Of a stretch of 57,588 bases of DNA, positions 14,553-34,739 are shown one piece after another. The first letter of the stretch is position 1. Every line of letters begins with the position of its first letter. The translations under genes were made by a program, and so were the position numbers. Origin of the DNA: Deltaproteobacteria bacterium RIFCSPHIGHO2_02_FULL_40_28 (GTDB lineage: Bacteria; UBA10199; 2-12-FULL-40-28); the NCBI GenBank assembly GCA_001798135.1, contig MGRJ01000031.1:1-57588 (forward strand), written 5' to 3'. The notes beneath the pieces are model-generated. The model saw nothing but the letters and a program-made list of their open reading frames with translations. It was not told the DNA's origin and did no database searches.

Positions 14553-14598
14553 TTGATAATTTTCTCATAGACCCCTAGAATAGGGGTGTCTACACCCC
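14553..14598 (+). promoter_or_regulatory. sigma-70-type promoter with nested palindromes, T3SS regulatory block
   Basis: TTGATA (14553-14558), a 17-bp spacer and TAGAAT (14576-14581). A CCCCTA-GAA-TAGGGG palindrome (14572-14586) covers the -10 box and overlaps a second palindrome, GGGGTGT-CT-ACACCCC (14583-14598), at the expected start of transcription. It probably drives the 14637-19050 operon; the palindromes could be an operator or a 5' stem-loop. Confidence 0.6.
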
Positions 14599-14636
14599 AC
14601 CTTAAAGGCGGGCCTTAAAGAGGGCATGTTTTAAAT

Positions 14637-15275
14637 ATGGCAGATCGTATCGATAAAATAAATCGGGTTGATTATGAGCGGGTTGAGGCCTCTGTAGAAT
14701 CTCAAAAAGATAGAAGTCGGGATGAAAACCAGGAGGATAGAGATAAGGATGAGTTTGCCAAGGCCAAGGAAAAAACAGATTGGAAACTTCTTTTAGATAA
14801 TGCACCCCAATGGAAACGAAATATTCAATTGGCAAGAGAAGAAGTGGAGAAAATTATTTTTCAAAAAATTAGTTTAAAAACAGAGCCCTCACTTCTGCGA
14901 ATTGATGTGGTTTTAAAAGATGGGGAGATCATTAGTCCAGCCTTTATGGCCATTTCACGATTGGTGGGTTTGAAAATTAAAAATTTAAACAGTGGCGATT
15001 TAGTGCCCCCGCATCTTCTTTTTCATAATCATGTTTTGCGAATTACTATTCCTAGCAATCCAGACTATTTGGATCAAAAAAGAAGTAGTGGAACGATACA
15101 ACCAGCCCAAGCAATTCAAGAAAAAGAACCGTCTCCTAAAGAAACCTCCTACTGGCAACTCTTTGATCCTCAAACAGGGCGCATAAAACTAGAGGTAAGT
15201 TTAATTTATGGGATTTCTGGAATTGTGATTATTTTAATCATCATTGGATTATCCCTGCTTTTTAACCAAACTTAA
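14637..15275 (+). CDS. tail-anchored membrane protein of unknown function, T3SS-linked
   Basis: 212-residue protein, no family recognised. The N-terminal 55 residues are highly charged (DRSRDENQEDRDKDEF) and probably disordered or coiled. The middle (about 75-140) looks like a small folded domain (LLRIDVVLKDGEIISPAFMAI). A single C-terminal hydrophobic segment (LIYGISGIVIILIIIGLSLL) makes it a likely tail-anchored inner-membrane protein facing the cytoplasm. Its stop is one base before the kinase ATG, so the two are probably coexpressed and may work together. Confidence 0.7.
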   Translation: MADRIDKINRVDYERVEASVESQKDRSRDENQEDRDKDEFAKAKEKTDWKLLLDNAPQWKRNIQLAREEVEKIIFQKISLKTEPSLLRIDVVLKDGEIISPAFMAISRLVGLKIKNLNSGDLVPPHLLFHNHVLRITIPSNPDYLDQKRSSGTIQPAQAIQEKEPSPKETSYWQLFDPQTGRIKLEVSLIYGISGIVIILIIIGLSLLFNQT

Positions 15276-15276
15276 T

Positions 15277-17634: not shown

Positions 17635-19050
17635 ATGGACGAAAAAGATTTTGGCAATAAAACCGAGCTTTTGCCTGCTGATGAAACCCGTGGTGTTATT
17701 TCACTACGTAAATGTCAGTTAGTGATTATTGAAGGCCCCGGTGAAAAAATTAAACATGAATTGGGAAAAACTAAAATTCTCCGTATTGGTAAAAAAGAAG
17801 ATAATGATATTGTTATTAAAGACAACACCGTTTCAAGAAATCACTTTGAAATTGAAACCACAGTAGATTCTTATCTTTTGCGTGATCTTAATTCTACCAA
17901 TGGCACCTACATCAATGGCATTCGTGTTAAAGAAGCCTTTCTTTCCCCTGGCGATATCATCACCATGGGTAAAACAAAAATTGAATATGTGGCTTTTGAT
18001 GAAAAAGTACACATGGAACCTTCTAGAAATACTTCCTTTGGCTTCATGGTAGGCAAAAGTAAAAAGATGCGCCAAATTTTTGGAATTTTAGAACGCATCT
18101 CGCCAACCCTTGCTACTGTTATCATTGAAGGAGACACCGGCACGGGCAAAGAATTGGTTGCACGTGCTATCCATGATAATTCTCAAAGAAAAGACAAACC
18201 CTTTATTGTTTTTGATTGTTCAGCTGTGGCCCCTAACCTGATTGAGTCGGAACTTTTTGGACACATGAAGGGCTCTTTTACAGGAGCTGTTAAAGACCGC
18301 AAAGGAGCTTTTGAGATGGCTACCGGTGGAACCATTTTTTTAGATGAAATTGGTGAACTTAATTTGGATTTACAACCCAAGCTTTTACGCGCCTTAGAGC
18401 AAAGAGAAGTCAGGAAGGTAGGCTCTACTCAGCCCGTTCAATTAGATGTAAGGGTTTTATGTGCCACCAATCGTGATTTAAGAAAAGAAGTTGAAGAAGG
18501 TCGCTTTAGAGAAGATTTGTACTATCGCCTTTCGGTTGTTAAGATTCAACTTCCTCCTTTACGCGAAAGAAACGAAGACGTGCCCCTGATTATCGAAAAA
18601 ATTCTTTCAACGGCCAGGTACAATCAAAAACCAGACGGGAGTTTTATTGCCACACGTGTAGAAGATGATGCTTTAAAAATGTTACAACGCTATCAATGGC
18701 CAGGCAATGTGCGTGAACTCAATAATATTTTAGAGCGTGCTGTTTCTTTCTCACAAAATGGATCAGTTGATGCGCAGGCCTTACGTGTTTTATTTAATGA
18801 AGCCCATAATGAAGAAGACCACACAGTAAAAACAGGAGCTGTTGCTGATAACAGCCTACCATTTAAAGAAGCCAAACAAAAGATCGTTGAAAACTTTGAG
18901 AAAGAATATCTACAAGATCTTTTAAAACGTAATAAAAATAATGTATCAAAAGCTTCCAGAGAAGCAAAAATTGATCGTAAACACTTGCGTAATTTGCTGA
19001 TTAAGTACGAAATTATCGACTCGAATTCTCCAGATGAAGAGGAAAATTAA
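17635..19050 (+). CDS. FHA-domain sigma-54-dependent transcriptional activator
   Basis: 471-residue enhancer-binding protein. An N-terminal FHA domain (about 46-115; RIGKKEDNDIVI, VSRNHFEIE, DLNSTNGTYINGI) replaces the usual receiver and would bind a phosphothreonine peptide. The AAA+ domain has Walker A GDTGTGKE at 166-173 and a sigma-54 contact loop reading GSFTGA at 213-218, one residue off the canonical GAFTGA. A Fis-type helix-turn-helix ends the protein (NNVSKASREAKIDRKHLRNLL). Encoded 3 bp after the kinase. A matching sigma-54 promoter lies at 31805-31820. Confidence 0.93.
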   Translation: MDEKDFGNKTELLPADETRGVISLRKCQLVIIEGPGEKIKHELGKTKILRIGKKEDNDIVIKDNTVSRNHFEIETTVDSYLLRDLNSTNGTYINGIRVKEAFLSPGDIITMGKTKIEYVAFDEKVHMEPSRNTSFGFMVGKSKKMRQIFGILERISPTLATVIIEGDTGTGKELVARAIHDNSQRKDKPFIVFDCSAVAPNLIESELFGHMKGSFTGAVKDRKGAFEMATGGTIFLDEIGELNLDLQPKLLRALEQREVRKVGSTQPVQLDVRVLCATNRDLRKEVEEGRFREDLYYRLSVVKIQLPPLRERNEDVPLIIEKILSTARYNQKPDGSFIATRVEDDALKMLQRYQWPGNVRELNNILERAVSFSQNGSVDAQALRVLFNEAHNEEDHTVKTGAVADNSLPFKEAKQKIVENFEKEYLQDLLKRNKNNVSKASREAKIDRKHLRNLLIKYEIIDSNSPDEEEN

Positions 19051-19063
19051 AATTTTTTCCTTT

Positions 19064-19214: not shown

Positions 19215-19228
19215 AATGTGTCCCTACA

Positions 19229-22106: not shown

Positions 22107-22161
22107 CCTTGAAATTAGAAGGGGAATAAATAATTTTATCCCATTTTTGCAGGTTTAGCAA
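22107..22161 (-). promoter_or_regulatory. promoter and leader stem-loop of the secreted-protein block
   Basis: On the minus strand: TTGCTA (22161-22156), 17-bp spacer, TAAAAT (22138-22133). A CCCCTT...AAGGGG stem-loop (22127-22107) begins a few bases after the -10 box. Further upstream is a highly AT-rich tract that could act as an UP element. The stem-loop could alternatively be a weak end signal for the sctT transcript. Confidence 0.5.
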
Positions 22162-22227
22162 ATGCCATGTCATTTTTTACCCCCTTTTTATATATTTATA
22201 TAATAAAATCATATAGTTATAATTAAT

Positions 22228-23043
22228 TTATTGAGCTAAAAGTTTAGATAAATGACTCACGTGTTGAATCATTACTTTAAGGATGTGATTTATTTGTCCC
22301 ATGAGCACAAGAAGGGAAACATAGATCATCAGAGGACCAGCATAGCCCTTTAAGGCAAATCCTAACTCAAAAACATTGATTTGAGGTGCCATTTTGTTGG
22401 CTATTCCAAGTACCATGTCTAAAAGTAAGATAGCGATAAGAACAGGAGCTGCTAATTGCATGGCAATGATTAAAACATCTCCTGATAAACGAACTAAAAA
22501 TTGCAAGTAGGGAGAAAATCCTGGAGCTAAATGTGGCAGCTCTAAAAGAGGCAGTGTTTGAAAACTTAAAAAGAAAGCTTCTAAAAAATCACGGTGCCCT
22601 CCTACAGAAATAAAAAGAGCAATGGCTAACCAAAAATTATAAAGACCAAAAATAGAAACTTGCCCTAACTGGGGAACAAAAACCTGGGCATTGGCTCCCC
22701 CTCGTTGAGAATCCACCACCCTTCCCGCAGCTTCTAAGGCATAAAACACCATCAGGGTTACAATCCCAACACTGAGTCCAAAAAAAATCTCCTTAAAAAA
22801 AAGGGCTAAAATAATACCATTATTGGCAGGAAACGAATCCTTGATGGGCGGAACAATCAGTGGATATAAAAAAAGAGAAAAAGCAATGGCCATGGCCATT
22901 CTTACTCGTCCAGGAACAGCACGCGTGCCTAAAAAGGGTGTTAGAAGAAGCATGACAAAAATGCGTGTAAAAATTAAACCCCAACAAATAAGAACAAAAT
23001 AAAAATCAATATTAAGGCCTAGTTGTTCTGAGATTTTACTCAC
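22228..23043 (-). CDS. sctT: T3SS export apparatus protein SctT (FliR/EscT family)
   Basis: Integral membrane component of the SctRST export gate, 271 residues with about six to eight hydrophobic segments. Family signatures include ICWGLIFTRIFVMLLLTPFL near the N-terminus, VDSQRGGANAQVFVPQLG in the middle and PVLIAILLLDMVLGIANKMA. Start is GTG at 23043, 3 bp after the sctS stop. Last gene of the core apparatus run; no sctU (flhB) follows, which is unusual because fliR/sctT is normally next to it. Confidence 0.92.
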   Translation of the reverse strand: MSKISEQLGLNIDFYFVLICWGLIFTRIFVMLLLTPFLGTRAVPGRVRMAMAIAFSLFLYPLIVPPIKDSFPANNGIILALFFKEIFFGLSVGIVTLMVFYALEAAGRVVDSQRGGANAQVFVPQLGQVSIFGLYNFWLAIALFISVGGHRDFLEAFFLSFQTLPLLELPHLAPGFSPYLQFLVRLSGDVLIIAMQLAAPVLIAILLLDMVLGIANKMAPQINVFELGFALKGYAGPLMIYVSLLVLMGQINHILKVMIQHVSHLSKLLAQ

Positions 23044-23046
23044 AAT

Positions 23047-23313
23047 TTACTTCATGTATTCGGGAAATGCTTCGAACAAGGTTTTAGTGTACGTAATAAG
23101 CTGAGCCATTCCAATAGGGCCTACAAAAGCAACAACAGTAATCACAGCCACTAATTTGGGTACAAAGGTGAGAGTTTGTTCCTGCACTTGAGTTGTAGCC
23201 TGCAGAAGACTCACCAACAAACCCACCGCCATCGCAGCAAGAACAGGCGGAGCCGAAAGAATCAGAACTAAAAAAAGAGATTCACGTCCTACGGCTAATG
23301 CAAAAGATTCCAT
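23047..23313 (-). CDS. sctS: T3SS export apparatus protein SctS (FliQ family)
   Basis: Small two-helix membrane protein of the export gate, 88 residues from the ATG at 23313, preceded by GGAGGG at good spacing. An upstream start (23337) would add eight residues that cover the ribosome-binding site. Two hydrophobic hairpins surround the conserved SLLQATTQVQEQTLTFVPKL segment. Lies between sctR and sctT. Confidence 0.93.
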   Translation of the reverse strand: MESFALAVGRESLFLVLILSAPPVLAAMAVGLLVSLLQATTQVQEQTLTFVPKLVAVITVVAFVGPIGMAQLITYTKTLFEAFPEYMK

Positions 23314-23343
23314 AAACCCTCCAAGTCTGTTGCACAAACTTAA

Positions 23344-24078
23344 CTACATGTAGCCCAAGATGAGCCCTTTACTAATTAAGTACCATCCGTCCACCATCAC
23401 AAATAAAAGAAGCTTAAATGGAAGAGAAACTGTAATGGGCGAAACCATGAACATACCCATAGCCAAAAGAATATTAGAAACCACCATATCGATAACCAAA
23501 AAAGGCAAGAAAAGAACAAATCCAATCTTAAAAGAATCAGCAAGTTCACTCACAATAAAAGCTGGAATAATAATTAAAAAATGATCTTCAGCAACTTCGT
23601 AAGTGCGATCTCCACGAAGTTGTTTCGCTAAATTAAAAAATAAAGAACGATCCTTAGTGGCAGCATGTTTCATTAAAAATGCACGCATAGGCTCTTTGCC
23701 CGCATCTACAGCACGTTTAACTCCATCAAGAGAAGTTTGTGAAAGAAGAGGCTGATTTGATGAACCTGGTTCACGAATAACCTTCTCTACCTTGGTATAC
23801 ACGTCTTGCCCAACTGGCATCATGATATAAATGGTGAGAATTAAAGCCATGCCTGTTACCACTTGATTAGGCGGAATTTGTTGGGTACCTAAAGCCGAAC
23901 GAATCATAGACAAAACAACCGCAATTTTAATGAAAGAAGAAGTCATGATGAGAAGAAAAGGAGCCAGTGAAAGAACCACCAGCACAGCCATAATTACAAT
24001 GGGTTTAGCCACAGGCCCATCATCAATACCCATTGGCATTTGAGCCAATAGAGGGTAAGCTAATAGTGTTAGCATCAT
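23344..24078 (-). CDS. sctR: T3SS export apparatus protein SctR (FliP family)
   Basis: Central export-gate membrane protein, 244 residues. The SSFIKIAVVLSMIRSALGTQ followed by QIPPNQVVTGMALILT block is diagnostic; the GTQQ-PPN form is closer to non-flagellar SctR than to typical FliP. C-terminal conserved segment AFIVSELADSFKIGFVLFLP is present. Four to five membrane segments. The ATG overlaps the end of the fliO-like gene. Confidence 0.94.
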   Translation of the reverse strand: MMLTLLAYPLLAQMPMGIDDGPVAKPIVIMAVLVVLSLAPFLLIMTSSFIKIAVVLSMIRSALGTQQIPPNQVVTGMALILTIYIMMPVGQDVYTKVEKVIREPGSSNQPLLSQTSLDGVKRAVDAGKEPMRAFLMKHAATKDRSLFFNLAKQLRGDRTYEVAEDHFLIIIPAFIVSELADSFKIGFVLFLPFLVIDMVVSNILLAMGMFMVSPITVSLPFKLLLFVMVDGWYLISKGLILGYM

Positions 24079-24383
24079 GAGGATTTCCCTCCACTGTCTT
24101 CAATATCTTCTGCAGTTAAATCCATTAATTTAGTAATTCCCTGCTCGGTTACTGAAATTAAAGCATGCTTATTTCCTACACGAATCACAAAAAGATTTTT
24201 TCTGGGCTCTAAGGCTATGCGATCTAAAATTTCAATATTTCCAACCGATTTAACACGGCTCGCGTGCATGCGCGGCACCAGGTAGCGAATAGAAACAAAA
24301 GCTAATGCAATCACAAAAACCATGGCCAACATGGTTTTTAAAAAGAGCCATCCAAAAGAAAGTTCTGGTGTCATATTATCCAA
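24075..24383 (-). CDS. fliO: FliO-like protein
   Basis: 102-residue single-pass protein. An N-terminal membrane segment (TMLAMVFVIALAFVSIRYLV) is followed by the FliO soluble domain pattern: IEILDRIALEPRKNLFVIRV, VGNKHALISVTEQGI, LMDL. FliO is a flagellar assembly factor for the FliP ring and is normally absent from injectisomes. Its position between fliN-like and sctR genes equals that in flagellar operons. It overlaps the preceding gene by 8 bp. Confidence 0.82.
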   Translation of the reverse strand: MDNMTPELSFGWLFLKTMLAMVFVIALAFVSIRYLVPRMHASRVKSVGNIEILDRIALEPRKNLFVIRVGNKHALISVTEQGITKLMDLTAEDIEDSGGKSS

Positions 24384-24810
24384 TGAGTTGTTTAATTTGA
24401 ATTCCTAATTTACCTTCAATTAAAACCAATTCACCTCGTGCTACTAATTTTCCATTGGCCACTAAATCAATGGCATCCTGGGGGGCTTTTTTAAGTTCGA
24501 TAAATTCACCTTGCTGGACAGAAACTAATTCTCTTAAGGTCATGGTTCTTTTTCCTAAAACAGCAACCAATTGCACAGGTATATCTTCTGCTAATTGTTT
24601 TACTCCACGATCAAATTGCTGGGCATCCATTTCTGGAAAATCTTTTGGCTGTGGGGGCATGGGAGGCCTAGCTTTGACTTGCGCTTGTGCTTGAGGTGCA
24701 CCTTGCGATACAGGTGGCTTAGGTTTAGGAGTGACCTTAGGTTGTGTCAAGGGTTCAAGACCTAACTCTTTTAAGAGATCATCATCGAGTGGATTATCCG
24801 CATCCGCCAT
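24376..24810 (-). CDS. sctQ: FliN-like C-ring protein (SctQ C-terminal type)
   Basis: 144 residues. A Pro/Gln/Lys-rich linker (residues about 20-60) precedes a SpoA domain (LAEDIPVQLVAVLGKRTMTL, LVANGKLVARGELVLIEGKL). SpoA proteins build the cytoplasmic ring: FliN in flagella, the SctQ C-terminal product in injectisomes. The separate FliM-like gene lies immediately upstream, which matches flagellar fliM-fliN order. Overlaps the fliO-like gene. Confidence 0.88.
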   Translation of the reverse strand: MADADNPLDDDLLKELGLEPLTQPKVTPKPKPPVSQGAPQAQAQVKARPPMPPQPKDFPEMDAQQFDRGVKQLAEDIPVQLVAVLGKRTMTLRELVSVQQGEFIELKKAPQDAIDLVANGKLVARGELVLIEGKLGIQIKQLIG

Positions 24811-24818
24811 TTATCCCC

Positions 24819-25760
24819 CTATTCACTAAACACACCTTCTAGCGATACTTTCAGCACAGGCTTATCACTTGTTAGTCTTACATCAAAACCACCTTGGGTT
24901 CCATCCCCAATTCTTAATTTCAACAAGCCAGATAAATGTTTTCCATCATAGTCGGGATAACTTTCATCTAAAAGAACAATATCCCCTCTCTCCAATTGTG
25001 ATAAATCTGAGTGAGACAGCTCTGCCCTTCCAACCTCTAGCCAACTCACACAACGAAAATGCTCAAAACCAGCAAAGCGTTTGGAAGCTTTTTGGTTTTC
25101 ATGAGTCATGGTTTGACTCCAAAATATTTCGTTTTTTAAAGCCATGTCTTTTAACATTTCCTTAGGAACCAAAATGCGAAAAGGTCCAACTGTTTGGTTT
25201 AAAGCCACCTTAAAATTAAAAACAACTAACGCCTCTTCTTTAGGCAAAAGAGAAAGAATTTCTTTTCTTTGTACAATAAGCCGACTTAAAACAAGAGCTC
25301 GGTTTTTATTTTCAAAGACCTGGGGAGTTAAACTTGCAACCTTAACCAAAAAATATTTGAGCATCCCTTGCTCTAAGGATGTTAATTCGTGATTGACTTG
25401 TCTTTTGTTCTCCCCCCCTAGGAGTTTATCGATGATTGCAAAAGCAAGATGAGAAGCAAACTCGATCATAACTGGTTTGGTATAGGGAGTCAAGGTGGCC
25501 ACTGCCAAAATAGGATATGCAGGAACAATAGCTCCATATTGTTCAAAGCTGGTCTTGGAAAAATCTTCATAGCCAACATCAAAAGAGGGACCTACAATCT
25601 TACGAATAAAATTGATAAACTGCTCTAAGAGAAGATCGTTAGCTTCATCAAAAGCATTGGCTATGTATTTATGAATAGCCACATCTTCAAAAGTGTATTT
25701 TTTTAAGAGATCGAACGGATAGGGTTGGATGCCGGGTTTGCTCATTCCACTATAAAACAT
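24819..25760 (-). CDS. sctQ: FliM/SctQ-like C-ring protein
   Basis: 313 residues. The middle region (AFAIIDKLLGGENKRQVNHE, LTSLEQGMLKYFL) has the layout of the FliM middle/CheC-like domain, and the C-terminal 75 residues form a SpoA domain (VGRAELSHSDLSQLERGDIV). No FliM N-terminal CheY-binding motif is evident. The ATG at 25760 overlaps the preceding stop (TGATG); 25745 is a possible alternative start. Together with the FliN-like protein it would form the sorting platform ring. Confidence 0.83.
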   Translation of the reverse strand: MFYSGMSKPGIQPYPFDLLKKYTFEDVAIHKYIANAFDEANDLLLEQFINFIRKIVGPSFDVGYEDFSKTSFEQYGAIVPAYPILAVATLTPYTKPVMIEFASHLAFAIIDKLLGGENKRQVNHELTSLEQGMLKYFLVKVASLTPQVFENKNRALVLSRLIVQRKEILSLLPKEEALVVFNFKVALNQTVGPFRILVPKEMLKDMALKNEIFWSQTMTHENQKASKRFAGFEHFRCVSWLEVGRAELSHSDLSQLERGDIVLLDESYPDYDGKHLSGLLKLRIGDGTQGGFDVRLTSDKPVLKVSLEGVFSE

Positions 25761-26716
25761 CAGACTATTTCAACTTTGTAAATGGGAATATTTTTTTCTT
25801 TCAGTCGTAAATAAATTTTGGGCCGGTTAAAAAGAAAAAGGTTCTTTACATCACGGGCCGGACAAACAAATTTAATCACAATACCCTCACTTGTTTGAGA
25901 AGCTAAAATTTTCATTCCTGAAAAAGTTTCGTCGGTTAAAGTGATTTCCATTTCGGTTAATCCATCCTTGGTAAAAAGACGCACAGATTCTACAATTTCA
26001 TCTAAAACCCGATCTGGAAGTTTTTGATTTGAGGCTTGAGATTGGGAGCTTTCTGCACTTGATACACCAGCTACAGCCATTGGAGCCACCTTCTGATTAA
26101 AATGAAGCGCTGTTTTGCTGATTGTTTTTTCACCTTCCTTCTTCTCACCAAAAGATCCTGAAAAAGATTGGTTACCACCACCAAAACCCTGATCTTTATT
26201 ACGGTCTCCTCCAGAGTTTTGAGATCCACCACCTCCAGCACTCCCTCCTTCAGAACCGCCATCCTGGCCACCACCCTGGCCGCCGCTGCCCCCTTCACCC
26301 CCACCATGATGAGAAGATTTGGTTGCATCAATGCGCGCATGACCATCTTCGGCCGTAGCAGTAGCACCACGGGCGTGAGTTTGTTCTTTTACCGAATCTT
26401 TTTTATCCTCGTCTTTTTTGTTAGCTTCTTGTTGCTCACGATCTTTAGTGCTTTCTTTATTTCTAAAAGTTTCAATAATTTTAGACATTAATCCTGGCTG
26501 GTCTTTAACTTCGGCTTTTCCTCTCTGATCTCCTTCTTTATCTTTTCTATTCTTACTATCAATCTGGCTCAGTTCTTTTTGTTTTATTTTATTTGCAAAC
26601 TGCGCCTGAAAAGCAGCATCCGGCTTTTGTTTGGCCAGTTCACGATTACGATCTGCCTTTTTATCATCGGCTTTCTTGGCATCTTCTTTTGCTATATCGA
26701 TATTATCAACCGGCAT
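25760..26716 (-). CDS. sctP: SctP/FliK-like needle or hook length-control protein
   Basis: 318 residues. N-terminal 120 residues are extremely Lys/Asp/Glu-rich, followed by a Gly-rich linker (residues about 140-195). The C-terminal 75 residues (LTEMEITLTDETFSGMKILA, GIVIKFVCPARDVKN) match the FliK/SctP T3S4-like domain that switches substrate specificity via FlhB/SctU. Position between the FliJ-like and FliM-like genes is exactly that of fliK. GAGG ribosome-binding site upstream. Confidence 0.75.
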   Translation of the reverse strand: MPVDNIDIAKEDAKKADDKKADRNRELAKQKPDAAFQAQFANKIKQKELSQIDSKNRKDKEGDQRGKAEVKDQPGLMSKIIETFRNKESTKDREQQEANKKDEDKKDSVKEQTHARGATATAEDGHARIDATKSSHHGGGEGGSGGQGGGQDGGSEGGSAGGGGSQNSGGDRNKDQGFGGGNQSFSGSFGEKKEGEKTISKTALHFNQKVAPMAVAGVSSAESSQSQASNQKLPDRVLDEIVESVRLFTKDGLTEMEITLTDETFSGMKILASQTSEGIVIKFVCPARDVKNLFLFNRPKIYLRLKEKNIPIYKVEIV

Positions 26717-26717
26717 A

Positions 26718-27218
26718 TTAAGACCTCATGCGGTTTAATTGATAAACCGTATTTCCCAACTCGTTCATCAACTTGTTTTCTTTGGCATCAAGTGTTTTCT
26801 TTTCTTTCTTTGTCCAAAGCTCCTTATGTTTTTCCATCACATTCAATTCCTGGGCTGCATCCAGATAATCTCTTCTGGCCCTTTTTAATTTTTCTTCGGC
26901 ATGCACTACATTTTCAGTTTGATCCTTAATTTCATCTTCTACCTTTTTTTGATCGTCTTGTAGTTTAATCATAAAACCTAAATGAAACTGACTTTCTTTA
27001 ATTCGTGCCTGACCTGTAGCTACTTTTTGATTCATATCATTTCTCGCGTGCTCTCTTTGACGAATAACCTCCTTTTTTAAATCAGTGAGTTTTTTTAACT
27101 TTTCTTTCTCATCATCTAATTTTTTAATAGCCTTAGAGAGAGCTATTTCAGTTTGGCGTTTACGCCTTTCTTTAAGTTGTAAAAGAGGTTCTAATCTGTA
27201 TCGATTTTTCTTGGGCAT
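26718..27218 (-). CDS. sctO: SctO/FliJ-like coiled-coil stalk protein
   Basis: 166 residues, almost entirely charged coiled coil (LKERRKRQTEIALSKAIKKL, EEKLKRARRDYLDAAQELNV). FliJ/SctO proteins form the stalk that inserts in the ATPase hexamer. Location directly after the ATPase gene supports the call although sequence similarity in this family is always weak. No strong ribosome-binding site; 8 bp from the sctN stop. Confidence 0.8.
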   Translation of the reverse strand: MPKKNRYRLEPLLQLKERRKRQTEIALSKAIKKLDDEKEKLKKLTDLKKEVIRQREHARNDMNQKVATGQARIKESQFHLGFMIKLQDDQKKVEDEIKDQTENVVHAEEKLKRARRDYLDAAQELNVMEKHKELWTKKEKKTLDAKENKLMNELGNTVYQLNRMRS

Positions 27219-27226
27219 AATTTAAT

Positions 27227-28552
27227 TTATGAAAAAATGGCTTTAAGACTCTCTACTGCATCATCATAGTCTACATTTTCTCCAACTTCTTGTTTTAGAA
27301 AATTATTAACCTCCTCAATTTTTTCGATGGCATAATCTACAGCAGGATTAGAGCCTGATTCATAAGCGCCAATTAAAATTAAATCTTTTTCTTTTTCATA
27401 GTTGGCCACAACTTCTTTGAGTTTACGTGAGGCCTCAAGATGATCTTTCTCTACAATATTGCTCATTACACGAGACACCGATTCGGAAACATCAATGGCT
27501 GGATATTGCCCCCTAGCAGCCAAATCTCTGGAAAGAATAACATGCCCATCTAAAATAGAACGCACTTCATCTGCTACAGGCTCGTTCATATCGTCTCCTT
27601 CAACCAGTACCGTATAAAAGGCAGTAATTGAACCCTTGTCAGAATTACCACTTCTCTCTAACAGTTTAGGAAGGGTTGAAAAAACAGAAGGAGTAAATCC
27701 TTGTCGGGCTGGAGGTTCACCAACCGCTAAGCCAATCTCGCGCAGAGCTCGCGCAAAACGAGTAATCGAATCCATCATGAGAATCACTTTTTTACCCTGA
27801 TCTCTAAAATATTCAGCAATAGCTGTTGCTACATAAGCTGCTTTAGCACGCACAAGAGAAGGTTGATCAGAAGTTGAAACAACAATCACCGAACGTTTAA
27901 TACCTTCCTCACCTAAATCTTGCTCTAAGAAATCACGTACTTCACGACCTCGCTCACCCACTAAACAAATCACATTGATGTCAGCCTCGGTATTTCTTGC
28001 AATCATTCCCATCAAGGTAGATTTTCCAACTCCAGCAGCAGCAAACAAACCAATTCTTTGTCCCTCACCAACAGTTAAAAGCGAATCCATACTTCGAATC
28101 CCAACAGAAATAGGTTGCAAGATACGCCTTCTTTTGAGGGCATCGGGCGGGGAAGCATGAACAGGATAAGTTCCCTCACACTGCAGAGGGCCTTTTTTAT
28201 CAACATCGAGAGGATCACCAAGACCATCAAGAATACGACCTAAAAGATTAAAACCAACAGGCACCATGAGGCAATTTCCTGTGGAAATCACATCATTGCC
28301 TGGCCCAATGCCTTCCAACTCACCTAAAGGCATAAGTAAAACATCATTGTCCTTAAAACCAACCACTTCAGCCTTAATGGGTTGTTTGCGATAAATAGAC
28401 TCAATAAAACAAAGTTCTCCAACACGCACATTGGGCACAACAGCCCGAACCACAAGGCCTGTTAGCTCTTTCACCTTACCCTTCACACGATAAAGCGAAA
28501 GGTTAGAAACTTGACTACGATATTTTTGGAAGTCGATCACTGGGGCTAACAT
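27227..28552 (-). CDS. sctN: T3SS ATPase SctN (FliI family)
   Basis: Hexameric export ATPase, 441 residues. Walker A AAAGVGKST at 171-179, Walker B VILMMDSITRFARA, and the family-specific GSITAFYTVLVEGDDMNEPV and AIDVSESVSRVM segments. It unfolds substrates and releases chaperones at the export gate. The start follows a GGAG site and overlaps the end of sctL by 7 bp. One of the clearest T3SS genes here. Confidence 0.96.
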   Translation of the reverse strand: MLAPVIDFQKYRSQVSNLSLYRVKGKVKELTGLVVRAVVPNVRVGELCFIESIYRKQPIKAEVVGFKDNDVLLMPLGELEGIGPGNDVISTGNCLMVPVGFNLLGRILDGLGDPLDVDKKGPLQCEGTYPVHASPPDALKRRRILQPISVGIRSMDSLLTVGEGQRIGLFAAAGVGKSTLMGMIARNTEADINVICLVGERGREVRDFLEQDLGEEGIKRSVIVVSTSDQPSLVRAKAAYVATAIAEYFRDQGKKVILMMDSITRFARALREIGLAVGEPPARQGFTPSVFSTLPKLLERSGNSDKGSITAFYTVLVEGDDMNEPVADEVRSILDGHVILSRDLAARGQYPAIDVSESVSRVMSNIVEKDHLEASRKLKEVVANYEKEKDLILIGAYESGSNPAVDYAIEKIEEVNNFLKQEVGENVDYDDAVESLKAIFS

Positions 28553-29238
28553 ATTTCTCCTAAACCTAAAGCTTTACGAATGGCCTTAAGTTGATTTTCA
28601 AGCTGGGCATCAATGGTGCCTACTTCGGATTCTACAATACACCCCTTAGGTTTCACTTTCTCATCGGACCTGATTTGAATAGAAGAAGAATGATCAAGCA
28701 CCGAAAGTAAATCGGCATGGTTAGCTTTAACTACTTCGTAATCAATAGGATTAACTAAAATAACAATTTTTTGGCCTTGAGAAGCTTTAAGGGTTTGCTT
28801 AACTAAACCAACAATAGCAGCATCCCTACTTGAAAGATCTTCTCCAATCACTTTTTCTGCAATGTCATAAACCAAACGAATAACATCCTTTTCAATTGTT
28901 GCCGCGAAATCTTCCTGGATTTTTTTAGCCTGCACCATCATTTCAGAAACAAGGGCCATGCCTTCTTCATGTCCTTCTTTAAAACCTTTTTTTCTTGTTT
29001 TTTCTAACTCTTCGCCCACTCGTGATAATAATTTTTCAGCCTCTTTTTTAATGCGCATAGCTTCTTTTTTAGCATCATCTAAAATGGCACGACCATACGT
29101 GGTTGCATCTCTTTCTTCCTTCCTTAAAACATTACGAGACAAAGCTGGAACCATCACATCGCCAGAATCCTTCAAATCAACTTGTTTTTGAAGATCAAGG
29201 GTGTCTTCAATTTCACTTCGTTTAACAATCTTACTCAT
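28546..29238 (-). CDS. sctL: SctL/FliH-like ATPase stator
   Basis: 230 residues. Long charged helix with heptads (about 50-110; AKKEAMRIKKEAEKLLSRVG) followed by the FliH/V-ATPase E-subunit-like C-terminal domain (VIGEDLSSRDAAIVGLVKQT, KPKGCIVESEVGTIDAQLEN). FliH/SctL binds the ATPase and links it to the C-ring. Encoded directly before sctN with overlap. Confidence 0.88.
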   Translation of the reverse strand: MSKIVKRSEIEDTLDLQKQVDLKDSGDVMVPALSRNVLRKEERDATTYGRAILDDAKKEAMRIKKEAEKLLSRVGEELEKTRKKGFKEGHEEGMALVSEMMVQAKKIQEDFAATIEKDVIRLVYDIAEKVIGEDLSSRDAAIVGLVKQTLKASQGQKIVILVNPIDYEVVKANHADLLSVLDHSSSIQIRSDEKVKPKGCIVESEVGTIDAQLENQLKAIRKALGLGEIC

Positions 29239-29281
29239 AAAAGTATTTTATCTTAAAACTCCCTGAATTAACAGGGTATTT

Positions 29282-30235
29282 CTAAACTTCTTGCCCTACC
29301 AACCCCAAGACTATATTGAGAATTTCTTCTCGATAACGGGCAACAGTTTTTTCTGTATTGATGGGTTGATTTCTATCGATATATTTTTGAAATTGACCAG
29401 CCACCTCTTTTGAAAAACGCCTTTTGATAAGCAAAATAGCTTGCGAATCTTGTGGCAGCAATGACTTAGAAAAAATAAAAAATCCAGCATCCATCACTAA
29501 GCCTTCGGTTGATCTGCGATTTAAATCTAACGAAAGAAAATGCGATTGGGCTTGTTTTAAACGGATTTGAGGTACTTTTCTTTTTTGCTCTACATGCCTT
29601 TTCAAAATAGTAGCTTCTTTTTTCTCAAGCCTGGCCAAAATAAAATCAATGCCCTTCTCGTTTAAACTAACAATAGCCATGGCTAGTTCAGCATAGCCTA
29701 ATTCACGAAACATCATTTCGAGTTTAAAACGTGCAAGATGAGGAATGGATTCAAAAGAATGACCTATAGGGCCACTCCAAGTGTCACTTACACGAAATCG
29801 ATTTTCGAAATCAGACCTCATGGTTAAAAATAATTCTTCATCCATATGAGATAATTGCGACAAGCGTGGAAGATTTTTCAGTACATCTGGTGGCAAACGA
29901 TCTAAAATGGAATGCACATGTTCACTTGGCAAGTATTTAAGCACAATAGCAATCACACGAGGGGGTTCTTTTACTAAAGCTTCTAAAATCCAATCGGGAT
30001 GAATTTCTGCCAAAGGAGATTTGGCTATTTCTTCTTTGAGCTGTTTCATTTCTGAAATAATGGTTTTGTTTCTCTCTGCCTTAGACAAAGTTAACAGTTC
30101 CTTGAAAGCAGGCTCTAAAATGTTTTGTTCTTGAGTGTGAAGAAAACGAAGAAGAGTAAGCGCCCCATCACCATCTAATAAAAGTGACACTAAGGCAAAA
30201 GACCTTTGAGTATCCGATAATTCCAAAAATTTCAT
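29282..30235 (-). CDS. FliG-like protein in the SctK position
   Basis: 317 residues. The N-terminal 70 residues (SFALVSLLLDGDGALTLLRF) resemble FliG-N, and residues about 82-125 (WILEALVKEPPRVIAIVLKY, LPSEHVHSILDRLPPDVLK) match the FliG middle-domain EHPQ-type motif with EPPR in its place. The C-terminal charged torque helix of flagellar FliG is not obvious. It precedes the FliH-like gene as in flagellar operons. No ribosome-binding site is visible because a repeat element abuts the ATG. It may serve as the SctK/sorting-platform adaptor. Confidence 0.72.
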   Translation of the reverse strand: MKFLELSDTQRSFALVSLLLDGDGALTLLRFLHTQEQNILEPAFKELLTLSKAERNKTIISEMKQLKEEIAKSPLAEIHPDWILEALVKEPPRVIAIVLKYLPSEHVHSILDRLPPDVLKNLPRLSQLSHMDEELFLTMRSDFENRFRVSDTWSGPIGHSFESIPHLARFKLEMMFRELGYAELAMAIVSLNEKGIDFILARLEKKEATILKRHVEQKRKVPQIRLKQAQSHFLSLDLNRRSTEGLVMDAGFFIFSKSLLPQDSQAILLIKRRFSKEVAGQFQKYIDRNQPINTEKTVARYREEILNIVLGLVGQEV

Positions 30236-30245
30236 ATTAAGACAC

Positions 30246-30446
30246 TGTTGAGAAATGTCTCCCCTCTGTCATCCCCGCGAAGGCGGGGATCCAGTTCCTC
30301 TCTGTCATTCCCATGAAGATGGGAATCCATCTTAAATTCAAAGATGGATCCCTGCTTTCGCAGGGATGACAATTGATGCAGGAATGACAGAATTGATGGA
30401 AAACTATATTTTTCAACAGACCCATTAAAACACTGTTGAAAACAGT
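30246..30446. repeat. composite palindromic repeat inside the T3SS operon
   Basis: Copies of the GTCATCCCCGCGAA...GGCGGGGATCC type (30268-30293) and GTCATTCCCATGAA...GGGATGAC type (to 30370) lie back to back. They are bracketed by TGTTGAGAAA (30246-30255) and TTTTTCAACA (30409-30418); a CACTGTT-GAA-AACAGTG palindrome follows (30430-30446). The element fills the 229-bp gap between sctI and the FliG-like gene and could fold strongly in the operon mRNA. Confidence 0.85.
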
Positions 30447-30464
30447 GCCCTCAAAGATTATTTT

Positions 30465-30956
30465 TCAGCCCACTTGGGTTTGTACAATGGTTTGAATACC
30501 ACGCGAAATTGCATCCGTAAATCGCGAAAAACCTTCCGCCATAATGGTGGTATTAGCAACACCTGCTTGGAGGGCTAAAAGCTGTCTGGGATTAACCTTA
30601 AGCCCAGGAGTGGTGAGAGTTTCAATGGCTGAATCAAGACTTAAGAGATCTTTGTTCATTTCTTTAAACATGTCGAAGTACTGGCTATCTTTACCACCCG
30701 TTTTTTGAATTTCAGAACCTTCGGTCTGAACTTTAATATTTTCAGCAGACACAACATTCATATCCCCTTGAGTGCTGCCATAGTCTTCCTTCATTTTATC
30801 CATCATGCGATCAGCAAGAGTTTGATCAAAAGTTGTTTGAAAAGAAGGGTTAGTACTTGGAGTTAAAGTACCAGGTTTTAAATCAGGCGAGGGCGTAGTA
30901 GACTTAATTGTCTGAGCTGCAATCTGATTTAATTTTGAAATTAAGGGATCTACCAT
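30465..30956 (-). CDS. sctI: SctI-like inner rod protein
   Basis: 163 residues, no Cys. N-terminal 60 residues are Thr/Pro/Ser-rich and probably flexible. The C-terminal 45 residues (LLALQAGVANTTIMAEGFSR, FTDAISRGIQTIVQTQ) have the LLxLQ...V/A...A helix seen at the C-terminus of SctI/YscI rod proteins. The preceding sigma-factor stop and this ATG abut (TAAATG). Early secreted rod/inner adaptor by position next to the fliG-like gene. It could also be a FliE-like adaptor. Confidence 0.7.
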   Translation of the reverse strand: MVDPLISKLNQIAAQTIKSTTPSPDLKPGTLTPSTNPSFQTTFDQTLADRMMDKMKEDYGSTQGDMNVVSAENIKVQTEGSEIQKTGGKDSQYFDMFKEMNKDLLSLDSAIETLTTPGLKVNPRQLLALQAGVANTTIMAEGFSRFTDAISRGIQTIVQTQVG

Positions 30957-31766
30957 TTAATCTGTCCTCACAACCTCCTCTGGAGAGAGGTCATCTCCCA
31001 TGGGTTTTTTCATGCCCTTGGGATTTAAACAAGTAAGCTTCTTAAAAAGCATTTCTAAGGCCCGTGCATGTAAGCGAGAAGTCCACGATTTAGAAAGACT
31101 GAGCTTAGTTCCAATTTCTTGTAAGGTTTTATTTTGGAAATAATACATTTTGACGAGTTTTCTTTCTTTGTCAGGCAAGGCCTCAATGGCATCGCGCATT
31201 TTTTCTTTTACCTTTTGAAACTCAGCTTTGTGTTCAATATCTTTTTTGGCATTTTTATCCTCCACCTCAAAATCTTCCATACTATCCAGAGACATCACAT
31301 ACATGGAGGCCAACGAATTAAAGGTATCATAGAGACCCTCAACTTCACTTTTAACAGCATTTGTTGCACCCATAATGCGTTCGGTAATACTTTGAAAATA
31401 GGCACTGGCAGCTTGATCTAATTTGATTTTGGCGTAGAGAGATCTGGGAACCCAGCCTGTTTTTCTTAATCCATCATAAATGGCACCCTTAATACGATAA
31501 TAGGCAAAGGTTTTAAAATCGACGTTAAACCGTGCATCAAAACGTTTAGCAGCTTCTAAAAGTCCTAACCTGGCATTGCACAAAATATCATCATAATCAG
31601 CATCTGAAGAAAGAGCACGAGCTACCTTGCTGGCAATAGAAGCCGCAAAAGGTAAATATTTCTCGATTAAAGAATCGGAATCAGGTGTTGGCGCAGCAGA
31701 TCCTGCAGGTGGAACCGATACTTTACCCTTTTGATTTTTTGTTTTTTCTTCAGTCACAGTGTGCAT
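30957..31766 (-). CDS. FliA-like sigma-70 family (sigma-28 type) factor
   Basis: 269 residues from the ATG at 31766, which has a GGGGAG site 4 bp upstream; an in-frame GTG at 31790 would translate the ribosome-binding site. Region 2 (YDDILCNARLGLLEAAKRFD, FKTFAYYRIKGAIYDGLRKT) and region 4 (LPDKERKLVKMYYFQNKTLQ, EIGTKLSLSKSWTSRLHARA) are clear and FliA/WhiG-like. An unusual 40-50 residue insert lies between the regions. It is the first gene behind a sigma-54 promoter and heads the sctI-to-sctT run. Confidence 0.88.
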   Translation of the reverse strand: MHTVTEEKTKNQKGKVSVPPAGSAAPTPDSDSLIEKYLPFAASIASKVARALSSDADYDDILCNARLGLLEAAKRFDARFNVDFKTFAYYRIKGAIYDGLRKTGWVPRSLYAKIKLDQAASAYFQSITERIMGATNAVKSEVEGLYDTFNSLASMYVMSLDSMEDFEVEDKNAKKDIEHKAEFQKVKEKMRDAIEALPDKERKLVKMYYFQNKTLQEIGTKLSLSKSWTSRLHARALEMLFKKLTCLNPKGMKKPMGDDLSPEEVVRTD

Positions 31767-31804
31767 AAACTCCCCTTTTTTGATTTCCACTTACCCTTCA
31801 AGTG

Positions 31805-31820
31805 TGCAGCTTTTGTGCCA
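31805..31820 (-). promoter_or_regulatory. sigma-54 promoter of the sigma-factor/T3SS operon
   Basis: Minus strand reads TGGCAC-AAAAG-CTGCA: a perfect -24 box and a -12 box with one mismatch (CTGCA for TTGCA), GG and GC separated by exactly 10 bp. Transcription would start near 31794, 28 bp before the sigma-factor ATG. A CTCCT-N6-AGGAG inverted repeat about 120 bp further upstream (near 31935-31950) is a possible activator site. Confidence 0.78.
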
Positions 31821-31970
31821 AGATCAAAAAAAGGCAGGCTCCTTAGAACTTATTATTTTATGTTTAAAATCAACTAGTTATCTATTTTTTTCTCCTTTGC
31901 ATCAATTGTACTTCCTTATTTGGGGGTCATTCTCCTCAAAAAAGGAGGTATAGAGTCTCCATTTCGAACC

Positions 31971-32417
31971 CTAAAAATTGATAATGGCCTCTTGCTGAGC
32001 ACGGGTTCTATTGGTTACCACTTGCCCAATGCCGGGCTCCATTTCGTTAGGAACCATAAAATCTGTAGGCATAGCTCCAGCACTCACTGAATCTTTTTCA
32101 AACAATCCAGGCATGGAAATTGGACCTGTTTGTTGATTGGCTTGCGCAGCGAGTTGATCTTTTACCGATGCTTTATAAAGTTGATCCTGAGCAAAACGGG
32201 TTGAGCCATAGGCAGCCATGCTAATGGGAAGACCTATTCCAGGAAGGAGAGCCCCCGTTAAAGCTCCCGTCAAAGGACCACCTAAATTACCCCAAAATTT
32301 TGCCAGACCACGTCCAAATTTTTGCCAAGGACTTAAGGGGTCAGCTTCAGGGCGAGTGTAGGCATCGGCTCTTCCGTAATCAACTCGCATCATCGATGGC
32401 ATAATAGGTACTACCAT
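31971..32417 (-). CDS. small T3SS-linked protein with Gly-rich hydrophobic segment
   Basis: 148 residues, no Cys, family not recognised. Residues about 38-70 (NLGGPLTGALTGALLPGIGL) form a Gly-rich hydrophobic stretch that could insert in membrane; flanks are polar. GAGG ribosome-binding site. Lies directly after sctJ in the same direction, so it may be an accessory basal-body or secreted pore protein. Speculative. Confidence 0.65.
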   Translation of the reverse strand: MVVPIMPSMMRVDYGRADAYTRPEADPLSPWQKFGRGLAKFWGNLGGPLTGALTGALLPGIGLPISMAAYGSTRFAQDQLYKASVKDQLAAQANQQTGPISMPGLFEKDSVSAGAMPTDFMVPNEMEPGIGQVVTNRTRAQQEAIINF

Positions 32418-32435
32418 AAAAAACCTCGTCTTAAA

Positions 32436-33368
32436 TTAAGCTCTCTGCCCTTTTGGAGCTCCTTCTAAAATTTGATCTACTTGAGGAGCACCTGCAGGAA
32501 AAGCTTGGTTGCTTGATGCCTCTGTACCCTTTTTATTTGCTGCATTCTTTTGCTGACGTGAACGACCCAGCATGAGAACAATAAGAACCAAACCCGCCGA
32601 CAAAATAACAAACACCACCAAGAAAATAATGGCTACCGTTTTAAACTTTTTAGCCGACTTAGCATCCATGGTAAGCCCACCAATAGAAACCATATCTTCT
32701 GCTTCCATGGCTTCTATTTCCTGATCATTCGTAGGCTTTTCTTCTGCCATCATTTCTGCTTCAAAGGGAGCTTCCACACGACTAATAATAACCGCTACAT
32801 CCCTCATATCCATACTTGGAACAGTGTTAGCTACAAACTGCTGCACCTTAGATTCGGTAATAAATTCTGTTTGGTTAGATTTGGCAGCAACTTGCACAAC
32901 AACTGAGGCAGATGGCCTAGCTTGTGCTACACTATCATCTGCAAATTCATCTTTATCGGGCATGTTTAAAACAACATCGGCATTAACCACACCTGGAATG
33001 GCACGAAGTGAATTAATGATTTCACCCTTTAAAGCCAACATTTCACGGCACTTTTCTGTTTTTGGGGTAGGAATCATACCTGCATCTTTGCAAATACCCG
33101 ACAAACCCAATTCTCTTTGTTTAGGTAAATTATGATCAACTAAGATTTCTCTGGCTCTTGGCTCATCAGAGCCCCTCACAAAAACTGACCACGAAACTGT
33201 TTGTTGTTTTTCGATAGCTTGCTTTCTGGCTTTAATCCCATTTCGAGATAACACCACCATAATCTCATTAGTGTTTCGTTGATCCAACTCTTGCAGCAGC
33301 ACAACCTCGTCCTTACAAGCTATAAAGGTTGTTACTACCAACACAAAAATGAGTTGAAGTTTTGTCAT
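32436..33368 (-). CDS. sctJ: T3SS inner-membrane ring lipoprotein SctJ (YscJ family)
   Basis: 310 residues from the ATG at 33368; the longer open frame upstream lies out of phase with any sensible N-terminus. Signal peptide with lipobox-like FIAC (Cys18). The YscJ/FliF domain is clear: TNEIMVVLSRNGIKARKQ, LRAIPGVVNADVVLNMPDKD, SASVVVQV, VQQFVANTVPSMDMRDVAVI. A single C-terminal membrane segment lies near residues 245-268. This is the non-flagellar form; flagellar FliF is far longer and not a lipoprotein. AAGGGA ribosome-binding site. Confidence 0.95.
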   Translation of the reverse strand: MTKLQLIFVLVVTTFIACKDEVVLLQELDQRNTNEIMVVLSRNGIKARKQAIEKQQTVSWSVFVRGSDEPRAREILVDHNLPKQRELGLSGICKDAGMIPTPKTEKCREMLALKGEIINSLRAIPGVVNADVVLNMPDKDEFADDSVAQARPSASVVVQVAAKSNQTEFITESKVQQFVANTVPSMDMRDVAVIISRVEAPFEAEMMAEEKPTNDQEIEAMEAEDMVSIGGLTMDAKSAKKFKTVAIIFLVVFVILSAGLVLIVLMLGRSRQQKNAANKKGTEASSNQAFPAGAPQVDQILEGAPKGQRA

Positions 33369-33378
33369 TAATTTTCCC

Positions 33379-33810
33379 TTATCTGAGAGCAGCTTTTTGC
33401 GAAGCCTCAGCTCGAAATTTAACAGGATCATATCCTTCCAACACCAAGTTCTTAAGCGACTTGGCAAAATCACCTGCCGTGCCTGCTGTATCAAGCTCGC
33501 ACGCCTTATCCAAGGCTTTAAGAGCTTCATCTTTTTTGCCATAAAATAAAAGAGCCTCTCCTAAATGAGCATAAGCAAAAGCACTTTTTTCGTTAATTTT
33601 TAAAGCATCCTTTAAAGACCTAATGGCAGGAAGATACTTTTTTTCAGCAAAGAGCACATTAGCAAGTGCCACATGAGGCACCTCGTGATCTGGTTTTAAG
33701 GCAATAATACCTTCAAAAACAGCCCGAGCTTCTTTTAACTTGGTCATTGCCAAGTAGATGTAGCCTGCCTCCAACATCAAAACAATATCGTCTCGCGGAA
33801 CCTCGATCAT
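33379..33810 (-). CDS. TPR protein, T3SS chaperone candidate
   Basis: 143 residues made of about three TPRs (AGYIYLAMTKLKEARAVFEG, LANVLFAEKKYLPAIRSLKD, LGEALLFYGKKDEALKALDK) and a short basic tail. Size matches SctG/PscG-type needle chaperones or SycD-like proteins. It lies between the needle-like gene and sctJ, with an AGGAG ribosome-binding site. A role as chaperone for the 33835-34338 product is plausible but unproven. Confidence 0.75.
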   Translation of the reverse strand: MIEVPRDDIVLMLEAGYIYLAMTKLKEARAVFEGIIALKPDHEVPHVALANVLFAEKKYLPAIRSLKDALKINEKSAFAYAHLGEALLFYGKKDEALKALDKACELDTAGTAGDFAKSLKNLVLEGYDPVKFRAEASQKAALR

Positions 33811-33834
33811 ACTTACTCCTTTTTTTACCCTTCA

Positions 33835-34338
33835 TCAGCTTGACCTGATGTTACGGACTATGGATGCAACCATAGAATCTCTTGAGTTCATCAAGTTAGA
33901 AGCCGTGGTAAACATCCGGTTTTGTTTTCCCATTTCATCCTGAATCATGAGCATTGAAATACTAGAAGCTTGTGAATCAGCTAATTGCTGTTGGGCCATA
34001 CCAAGCATGTCTTGGGTTCCCGAACCTGTTGAGGTAGGAACACCAGAACTGCTACTGCCATAATAATTGGTAGTTGCCCCTGAATAAACACCCGCCGTAG
34101 TTCCATAACCTGTGCCACCACCATACCCAGCCGTAGCATTTACTGCCGAACCAACAATGGTTGCGCCATCGGTATTTCCAGCGGTTGCCATTGACGAAGT
34201 AGCCACAGGACCAGCCAAGGCCGAACCATAACTGACCTTCGAATAAAAATCGGTTCCTGTTGCAGCCTTTTGGGTGCTCGTTAAAGCATAACCACTTGAG
34301 TCTACCGAGTTGGTACCAATATTTGTTGGAGTTGCCAT
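33835..34338 (-). CDS. needle-like (SctF-type?) exported subunit
   Basis: 167 residues from the ATG at 34338, chosen for its AGGAGAG site; 34365 is an upstream alternative. No Cys or signal peptide. Residues about 1-115 are low-complexity Gly/Thr/Ser/Tyr. The last 45 residues form one helix ending TASNLMNSRDSMVASIVRNI, similar in pattern to needle C-termini such as PrgI/MxiH (QSNTVKVFKDIDAAIIQNFR), about 7 of 20 identical by eye. Needles are normally about 80-90 residues, so this would be a needle with a long N-terminal extension. It could alternatively be another rod or filament protein. Confidence 0.55.
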   Translation of the reverse strand: MATPTNIGTNSVDSSGYALTSTQKAATGTDFYSKVSYGSALAGPVATSSMATAGNTDGATIVGSAVNATAGYGGGTGYGTTAGVYSGATTNYYGSSSSGVPTSTGSGTQDMLGMAQQQLADSQASSISMLMIQDEMGKQNRMFTTASNLMNSRDSMVASIVRNIRSS

Positions 34339-34358
34339 ATTTTCTCTCCTATCTTTCG

Positions 34359-34374
34359 AGCCCATGATTGGGCT
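34359..34374. promoter_or_regulatory. intercistronic stem-loop before the needle-like gene
   Basis: AGCCCA-TGAT-TGGGCT hairpin located 21 bp upstream of the needle-like start codon, between it and the preceding gene. It may stabilise the downstream mRNA or mark a processing site. Confidence 0.4.
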
Positions 34375-34421
34375 TACATTGAAATTATCGTCATCTTGAA
34401 ACCCTTAAGTTTCGTTTTTTC

Positions 34422-34739
34422 TCATTTTTTTACTGTCGCCTTCTTAGGATCCATTGAAGACTGCTTTGGAGTGGCCTTAGATATGAGATCATACTTGGTT
34501 TTCACAAGATCCCTGATTAAATCAACAGTTAAATCATAAGCCTTTAAGGCTGCCCGTACCTTTTTTTGCTTGGCTAAGCCCCCTATTTTATTTTTAATCA
34601 TTCTTTCCAAGGCTTCATAAGCTTGAGAGATACTTTGGTTCACCTTGACGAAATCCTCGCTTTCAATCAATTTTTCGATAAAGGGATACCCTAAAAGAGG
34701 CTTTTTCACTTCGTCTTTTTTTGCTGGTTTTGTAGCCAT
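34422..34739 (-). CDS. small basic helical protein, T3SS-linked
   Basis: 105 residues, Lys-rich (about one in five), mainly helical (YPFIEKLIESEDFVKVNQSI, AALKAYDLTVDLIRDLVKTK). No family recognised. Strong GGGGGAAG ribosome-binding site. First gene after a terminator-like hairpin and directly before the needle-like gene, a place where SctE/needle-chaperone type proteins often lie. Function not determined. Confidence 0.6.
   Translation of the reverse strand: MATKPAKKDEVKKPLLGYPFIEKLIESEDFVKVNQSISQAYEALERMIKNKIGGLAKQKKVRAALKAYDLTVDLIRDLVKTKYDLISKATPKQSSMDPKKATVKK

Follow-up and report, generated by a model that had tools for sequence, protein, structure and literature searches.

A sigma-factor gene that lies among the genes of a type III secretion system (T3SS) raises the question of what switches it on and which genes it serves in turn. 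The gene studied here (30957..31766, minus strand, ATG at 31766) is encoded in a window of 57,588 nucleotides, by which we mean the whole stretch of DNA that was analysed, from a genome of 2.16 Mb in 31 contigs. All of our evidence is drawn from sequence, with neither transcription-start nor protein-DNA data; sites, spacing, conservation, linkage and co-occurrence could be read from it directly, while binding, the direction of regulation and the signal are inferred. The surrounding locus has the marks of a non-flagellar T3SS, since SctJ, SctL, SctN, SctO, SctR, SctS and SctT are present and flagellin is absent. Directly 3' of the sigma gene is an SctI/inner-rod-like gene (30465..30956, minus), assigned by inspection of its C-terminus and without a Pfam hit, and beyond it are the genes of the export apparatus and sorting platform (FliG-like, SctL, SctN, SctO, SctP-like, FliM-like, SctQ, FliO, SctR, SctS and SctT; 22228..30235, minus).

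The minus strand ahead of the sigma gene (TTGGCACAAAAGCTGCACACTTG) contains TGGCAC-AAAAG-CTGCA at 31820-31805, a sigma-54 -24/-12 element (TGGCACAAAAGCTGCA, 31805..31820, minus) with a predicted +1 at 31794. The earlier note had claimed such a site with exact GG-N10-GC spacing 39 bp before the sigma ATG, and both figures were confirmed on this strand, the distance being counted from the A after the CTGC of the -12 element to the ATG at 31766. This start, immediately preceded by GGGGAG, is preferred because an alternative GTG at 31790 would be nearly leaderless. Over the whole genome, TGGCAYN6TGCW gave 55 matches (27+28) against 4 (3+1) for the reversed-pattern control, from which we infer that sigma-54 sites of such quality are mostly real. 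RpoN is encoded in the genome and its RpoN box (ARRTVAKYR) is intact; the features expected of a sigma-54 promoter (a -24/-12 element, RpoN, and an upstream activator site within about -80 to -150) are all recognisable by sequence.

Conservation was judged on position and motif in 29 relatives with readable DNA upstream of the sigma orthologue. Most of these relatives carry the label of Deltaproteobacteria MAGs in the databases, and they presumably resemble GTDB UBA10199. A strict or near-strict -24/-12 element precedes the orthologous gene in 27 of the 29, mostly 25-60 nt ahead of its start. By our own count from the search outputs, 22 carry strict TGGCAY-N6-TGC and five (the f14 family and G011) the variant TGGC-NG-N4/5-TTGCA; G001 has a TAGCAC...ATGC form, and G008 has no site before the sigma gene and TGGCACCAAATCTGC instead before the next, sctI-like gene. 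Conservation upstream of orthologues, which the earlier note had named as a check, is therefore met, the strict pattern occurring in only 0.54% of random 250-bp segments from the same loci. No sigma-54 site was found before the sigma homologues of Myxococcaceae and most Acidobacteria, the exception being a perfect site in L134.

Two more elements could be recognised upstream. The first is an IHF-like site, predicted by sequence (ATAACTAGTTGATTTTA, 31865..31881, minus) and centred 52 bp upstream of the -24 element; its reverse complement fits WATCAANNNNTTR, the textbook IHF consensus. EM on the DNA upstream of 37 sigma-54 sites returned a box, ATAACTAaTTGATATTA (log-likelihood 167, versus 70-80 for shuffled DNA), the reverse complement of which (AATCAAnTAGTTA) matches the same consensus. 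Its distances to the -24 element cluster at about 32, 42, 53 and 64 bp in both orientations, a phasing at 10.5 bp with a Rayleigh R of 0.82 (the associated p of 5e-10 disregards relatedness and best-hit selection). We rejected the box AACTAnnTGATTT as an activator site or a second promoter because of the 10.5-bp phasing, the two orientations, the fit to IHF and the existence of a separate palindrome further upstream. This palindrome, TGGGG-N8-CCCCA, came from a second EM run on more distant DNA (194 versus 46-51 shuffled) and lies mostly 93-130 bp from the -24 element. At the sigma gene it corresponds to a putative upstream activator site (UAS; TGAGGAGAATGACCCCCA, 31921..31938, minus), obtained de novo by EM about 110 bp upstream, with a weaker second copy at 31944-31961. 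Elsewhere in the window, a strong IHF-like box at 34753-34777 (minus) stands 30 nt before the gene 34422-34739 with no -24/-12 element nearby.

The protein most readily placed at this palindrome is the FHA-type sigma-54 activator encoded at 17635..19050 (plus). Its presence in the same locus, stated in the earlier note, holds and extends across the class, with a single orthologue per genome (62-78%). It has the domains of a bEBP, namely an FHA domain, an AAA+ domain with GSFTGA and a Fis HTH, and GSFTGA or GAFTGA is found in all 20 activator loci examined. A conserved Ser/Thr kinase with PEGA repeats (15244..17631, plus) adjoins it, as it does directly upstream of the activator at nearly all of the 20 loci, and the first gene of the operon (14637..15275, plus) is of unknown function. 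By inference, the kinase is the probable source of a phospho-signal to the activator. PEGA is also shared by an SctD-like protein of the window (34925-37177), in which an N-terminal FHA domain is fused to TPR and PEGA domains. The top UAS match of the whole window (AGGGGTGTCTACACCCCA, 14582..14599, plus) is directly upstream of the kinase-activator operon, where a sigma-70-like promoter, TTGATA-N17-TAGAAT (14553-14581), abuts it. At the activator loci of 20 relatives the top palindrome is likewise mostly just 5' of this operon, and two copies in tandem, about 25 bp from each other, are frequent. Autoregulation of the operon through the palindrome at 14582-14599 is probable, pending binding data.

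Because the palindrome is common to the sigma promoter and the activator operon in most relatives, the FHA activator is the likely regulator of the T3SS sigma promoter, although no protein-DNA data support this. Activator and sigma gene share a contig, 12-22 kb apart, in 11 genomes, and are jointly missing from G003, G023, G024 and G040; SctR is absent from the last three, and G003 has only a 41% flagellar-like match to it. No activator match at E<1e-100 was found in G025, G026 and G028. It could be argued that the -24/-12 element is real and yet answers to another sigma-54 activator, for example one with a receiver domain, and that the FHA activator has its target elsewhere. Twelve strong sigma-54 activators are indeed encoded in the genome, and in four relatives a receiver-type activator with its own sigma-54 site is divergent from the sigma gene. 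That protein, however, has no close orthologue in the genome studied here (about 38% identity at best), and such a reading would leave aside both the palindrome that most relatives have ahead of the FHA-activator operon and the co-occurrence and linkage of FHA activator and sigma. We consider this reading unlikely, without striking it out, and retain the FHA activator as the likely regulator. The divergent receiver-domain activators (L100, L102, L103 and L135), each with its own -24/-12 element, have an IHF-like box in 3/4 cases; they suggest a second input in some families, where several activators may act. An activator adjoining the sigma gene in some relatives was considered as an orthologue of the FHA activator and rejected, being a receiver-type protein of another kind.

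What, then, would the T3SS sigma itself read? The motif GCAACTT-N15-CCGATAAT was found de novo in the gaps before T3SS genes of relatives, first upstream of the 33835-34365 family and then of the 31971-32417 family. In the window, the predicted promoter is GAAACTT-N15-ACGATAAT (34384..34413, minus), upstream of 33835-34365; the operon behind it (31971..34365, minus) comprises 34365-33835 (secreted/rod-like), a TPR gene, SctJ and 32417-31971. In the T3SS loci of the class that were examined, the exact motif has 24 matches and its reversed control 0, and a spacer of 15 is nearly exclusive (0 at 11, 12, 14 and 16-19; 2 at 13). Genome-wide, class genomes contain about 190 exact matches; the reversed control gave about 1, and 14 genomes from other phyla gave none. 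The -10 is of the FliA type (GCCGATAA), and the -35 is GCAACTT, not TAAA; the FliA consensus TAAA-N15-GCCGATAA was dropped with 0 exact matches. In those T3SS loci of Myxococcaceae and Acidobacteria that encode the orthologous sigma, both halves recur with 13 bp between them, a form equal to FliA geometry (GCAACTTT-N11-GCCGATAA versus TAAAGTTT-N11-GCCGATAA). The genes behind the motif include those for SctV (L187) and SctU (L196, L198), so that unlinked sctU and sctV are among the putative targets, together with a lytic transglycosylase (L188, L189, L234), homologues of 31971-32417 and many Ser/Thr-rich proteins. Individual genomes reach 16 (G029) and 20 (G041) exact sites. A family of about 215 residues (LPLDH..F...P.E.WT.E...) is also found behind such promoters in different genera (L172, L175, L176, L199, L238) and is a candidate family of secreted effectors. 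In L101, the gene after sctT has sites for both sigma-54 and the T3SS sigma (19384 and 19435), 50 bp apart, which suggests control by both steps.

The genome scan for promoters of the new sigma that the earlier note had called for succeeds at the level of the class, with its roughly 190 sites and its T3SS genes, but not by number alone in the genome itself. There, AACTTN16CGATAA has 5 exact matches where a base-composition estimate expects roughly 2, which is not significant, and only one clear T3SS-sigma promoter is found within the T3SS locus. Two further sites of this genome (C3:35482 and C10:38119) precede Ser/Thr-rich proteins; the motif was not found at sctU or sctV of this genome, and matches on C27 and C30, before toxin-antitoxin-like or unknown genes, are probably chance. 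We propose that GCAACTT-N15-CCGATAAT is probably the promoter of the T3SS sigma, the assignment of targets being inferred.

The same flagellin-free genome encodes a second FliA-related sigma without WVPRS (G000:C15:213216, L004); its long branch groups with the motility FliAs that flagellated relatives carry, and it may be a motility sigma that has decayed or been put to another use. If this or some different sigma were the reader of the motif, the T3SS sigma would have to read something else, and the existence of the C15 protein, like the occurrence of the motif in G024 without a detectable T3SS sigma, leaves room for this. Yet the C15 protein lacks the signature of region 2.4/3.0 and falls with motility FliAs, the motif sits at T3SS genes, unlinked ones included, and its 13-bp form accompanies the orthologous sigma in the T3SS loci of Myxococcaceae and Acidobacteria. 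We find this improbable and keep the T3SS sigma as the probable reader. As for G024 itself (99% complete), it holds 6 exact T3SS-sigma promoters, one of them ahead of a transglycosylase with homologues in other regulons, and no sigma factor, SctR, FHA activator or T3SS was found in it, perhaps through recent loss or through a missing contig or assembly gap.

The FliA-like nature of the T3SS sigma, as claimed beforehand, is borne out and is conserved across the class. FliA_WhiG (TIGR02479) is its top NCBIfam model (135.2 bits, under the curated cut-off of 189.6), among solved structures FliA and WhiG-type proteins come closest to it, regions 2 and 4 are present, and the LRxxxWxPRS motif of region 2.4/3.0 is kept as LRKTGWVPRS. 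Orthologues at 51-76% identity occur in nearly all genomes of the class, and homologues at 40-45% in Myxococcaceae and Acidobacteria; wherever sequence sufficed, the gene is within the T3SS locus in these groups and in all class members examined. In the tree, the T3SS sigmas of the three phyla (the deltaproteobacterial MAG class, Myxococcaceae and Acidobacteria) fall into a single clade (99/95) that is separate from motility FliA. From the FliA_WhiG match and the FliG-, FliM- and FliO-like genes, one might take the protein for plain flagellar FliA and the locus for a degenerate flagellum, but this is very hard to reconcile with a score of 135 bits against a cut-off of 189.6, with the lack of flagellin (none in this genome, nor in 41/45 genomes searched), with the SctJ, SctL and T3SS ATPase signatures of the locus, and with the flagellated relatives G005, G010 and G028, which carry the T3SS sigma plus a separate FliA. 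FlhA and FlhB have one homologue each in the genome, both outside the window, and no FlgM-like anti-sigma was found among the ten window proteins scanned. Only tentatively, and rather against than for, can we entertain a history in which the T3SS-dedicated FliA-family sigma is a relic of the injectisome's flagellar ancestor, spread with early-branching NF-T3SS over at least three phyla with its own GCAACTT/CCGATAA code, and in one lineage brought later under the control of sigma-54 and a kinase.

The reach of the sigma-54 transcript bears on how the two steps divide the work. In most relatives, the export-apparatus genes are contiguous with the sigma operon, with sigma-sctI-fliG-sctL-sctN... 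gaps of about 0-30 bp, so that the transcript probably includes the core apparatus genes. Read-through is less sure in the window, where the sctI-like and fliG-like genes are 229 bp apart and the gap is rich in repeats. Palindromic, REP-like repeats (GTCATCCCTGCGAAAGCAGGGATCC / CATTCCCGTGAAAACGGGAATCC type) occupy this gap (30236-30464) and another at 19051-19228. The FliG-like gene (29282-30235; FliG_M and FliG_C in Pfam) occurs with FliM- and FliO-like genes in a T3SS locus that is non-flagellar in other respects, and its conservation extends through the class and to Acidobacteria (L083-L107, L111); FliG is normally a part of flagella only. Before the post-sctT operon there is a degenerate -24/-12 element (TGACATGGCATTTGCT, 22157..22172, minus) with an IHF-like box (22199-22223), and relatives have a clear TGGCATnnnGGTTGC at this position.

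A chance match without function at 31805-31820 would find comfort only in the first base of the -12 element, a C and not a T, and can be set aside given conservation at the same place in 27/29 relatives and the phased elements that accompany the site; the predicted sigma-54 promoter of the T3SS sigma gene is real, far beyond chance, even in the absence of transcripts and a mapped start. We are confident, short of certainty, that this promoter of a dedicated T3SS sigma gene stands midway in a cascade of two sigma factors. In the model that we propose, the PEGA Ser/Thr kinase would probably control the FHA activator through phospho-threonine; the activator, probably regulating its own operon via the same palindrome, would bind TGGGG-N8-CCCCA about 110 bp upstream and be brought to sigma-54 RNA polymerase by the IHF-like bend; this polymerase would transcribe the sigma gene and, to judge from contiguity in relatives, sctI-fliG-sctL-sctN...sctT; and the FliA/WhiG-like sigma would read GCAACTT-N15-CCGATAAT before the sctJ operon, before scattered genes for secreted proteins and for a lytic transglycosylase, and before sctU and sctV in some relatives. 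The linear sigma-54, sigma-28-like, T3SS cascade of the earlier note is supported in its order by the shared palindrome and the de novo motif, but not in its strict linearity, as the export-apparatus operon is probably under direct sigma-54 control as well; the second sigma probably serves mainly the sctJ operon (ring/rod-like) and secreted-protein genes. For a large uncultured group, this provides a map of regulation that can be put to the test, a motif that flags candidate T3SS substrates scattered through genomes, and a system in which one may ask whether injectisomes retained a flagellar sigma factor.

Our searches of the open-access literature (subscription papers were outside our scope) turned up no FliA-type sigma dedicated to a T3SS, and those on UBA10199 and Chlamydia turned up nothing on such a circuit. 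In Chlamydia, sigma-54 and sigma-28 are described as coexisting with a T3SS. To our knowledge, Chlamydia has no dedicated T3SS sigma-28 under sigma-54. The needleless T3SS* of Myxococcus xanthus and the early-branching Myxo NF-T3SS can also be compared, since homologous Myxococcaceae loci contain the orthologous sigma gene, although no sigma-54 site precedes it there; the word sigma is absent from the main texts of the two papers, one about the needleless system and one about how NF-T3SS evolved (PMC12075869, PMC3459982). The likeness to flagellar class II/III control suggested by the earlier note is looser than it had appeared. It rests on the order of sigma-54 and then a FliA-like sigma, as in the FleQ/FlrA-sigma-54-FliA hierarchy, where early genes need a sigma-54 activator and FliA drives late exported products from promoters with a GCCGATAA-type -10, but the present genome lacks flagellin, its -35 motif is GCAACTT and not TAAA, and no FlgM-like protein was seen among the ten window proteins scanned. 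Legionella fliA, for its part, is reported to be RpoN-independent (PMC5655016). The nearest known control is that of the Pseudomonas syringae Hrp T3SS, in which HrpR/HrpS, sigma-54 and IHF act at hrpL and HrpL then acts at hrp-boxes (PMC5263251). Like that system, the proposed one leads from sigma-54, an enhancer-binding protein and an IHF site to an alternative sigma, and from there to T3SS genes and effectors through one motif; the combination of sigma-54 promoter, IHF site and activator at a T3SS sigma gene is recognised here by sequence only. They differ in that HrpL is an ECF sigma that reads the hrp-box, whereas the second sigma here fails the ECF criterion, is FliA/WhiG-like and would read GCAACTT-N15-CCGATAAT, and in that the place of HrpR/HrpS is taken by an FHA-domain protein with a linked Ser/Thr kinase. 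Based on this comparison, the sigma-54-to-second-sigma layout of the plant-pathogen Hrp system would also exist with an unrelated, FliA-like sigma and a kinase/FHA input.
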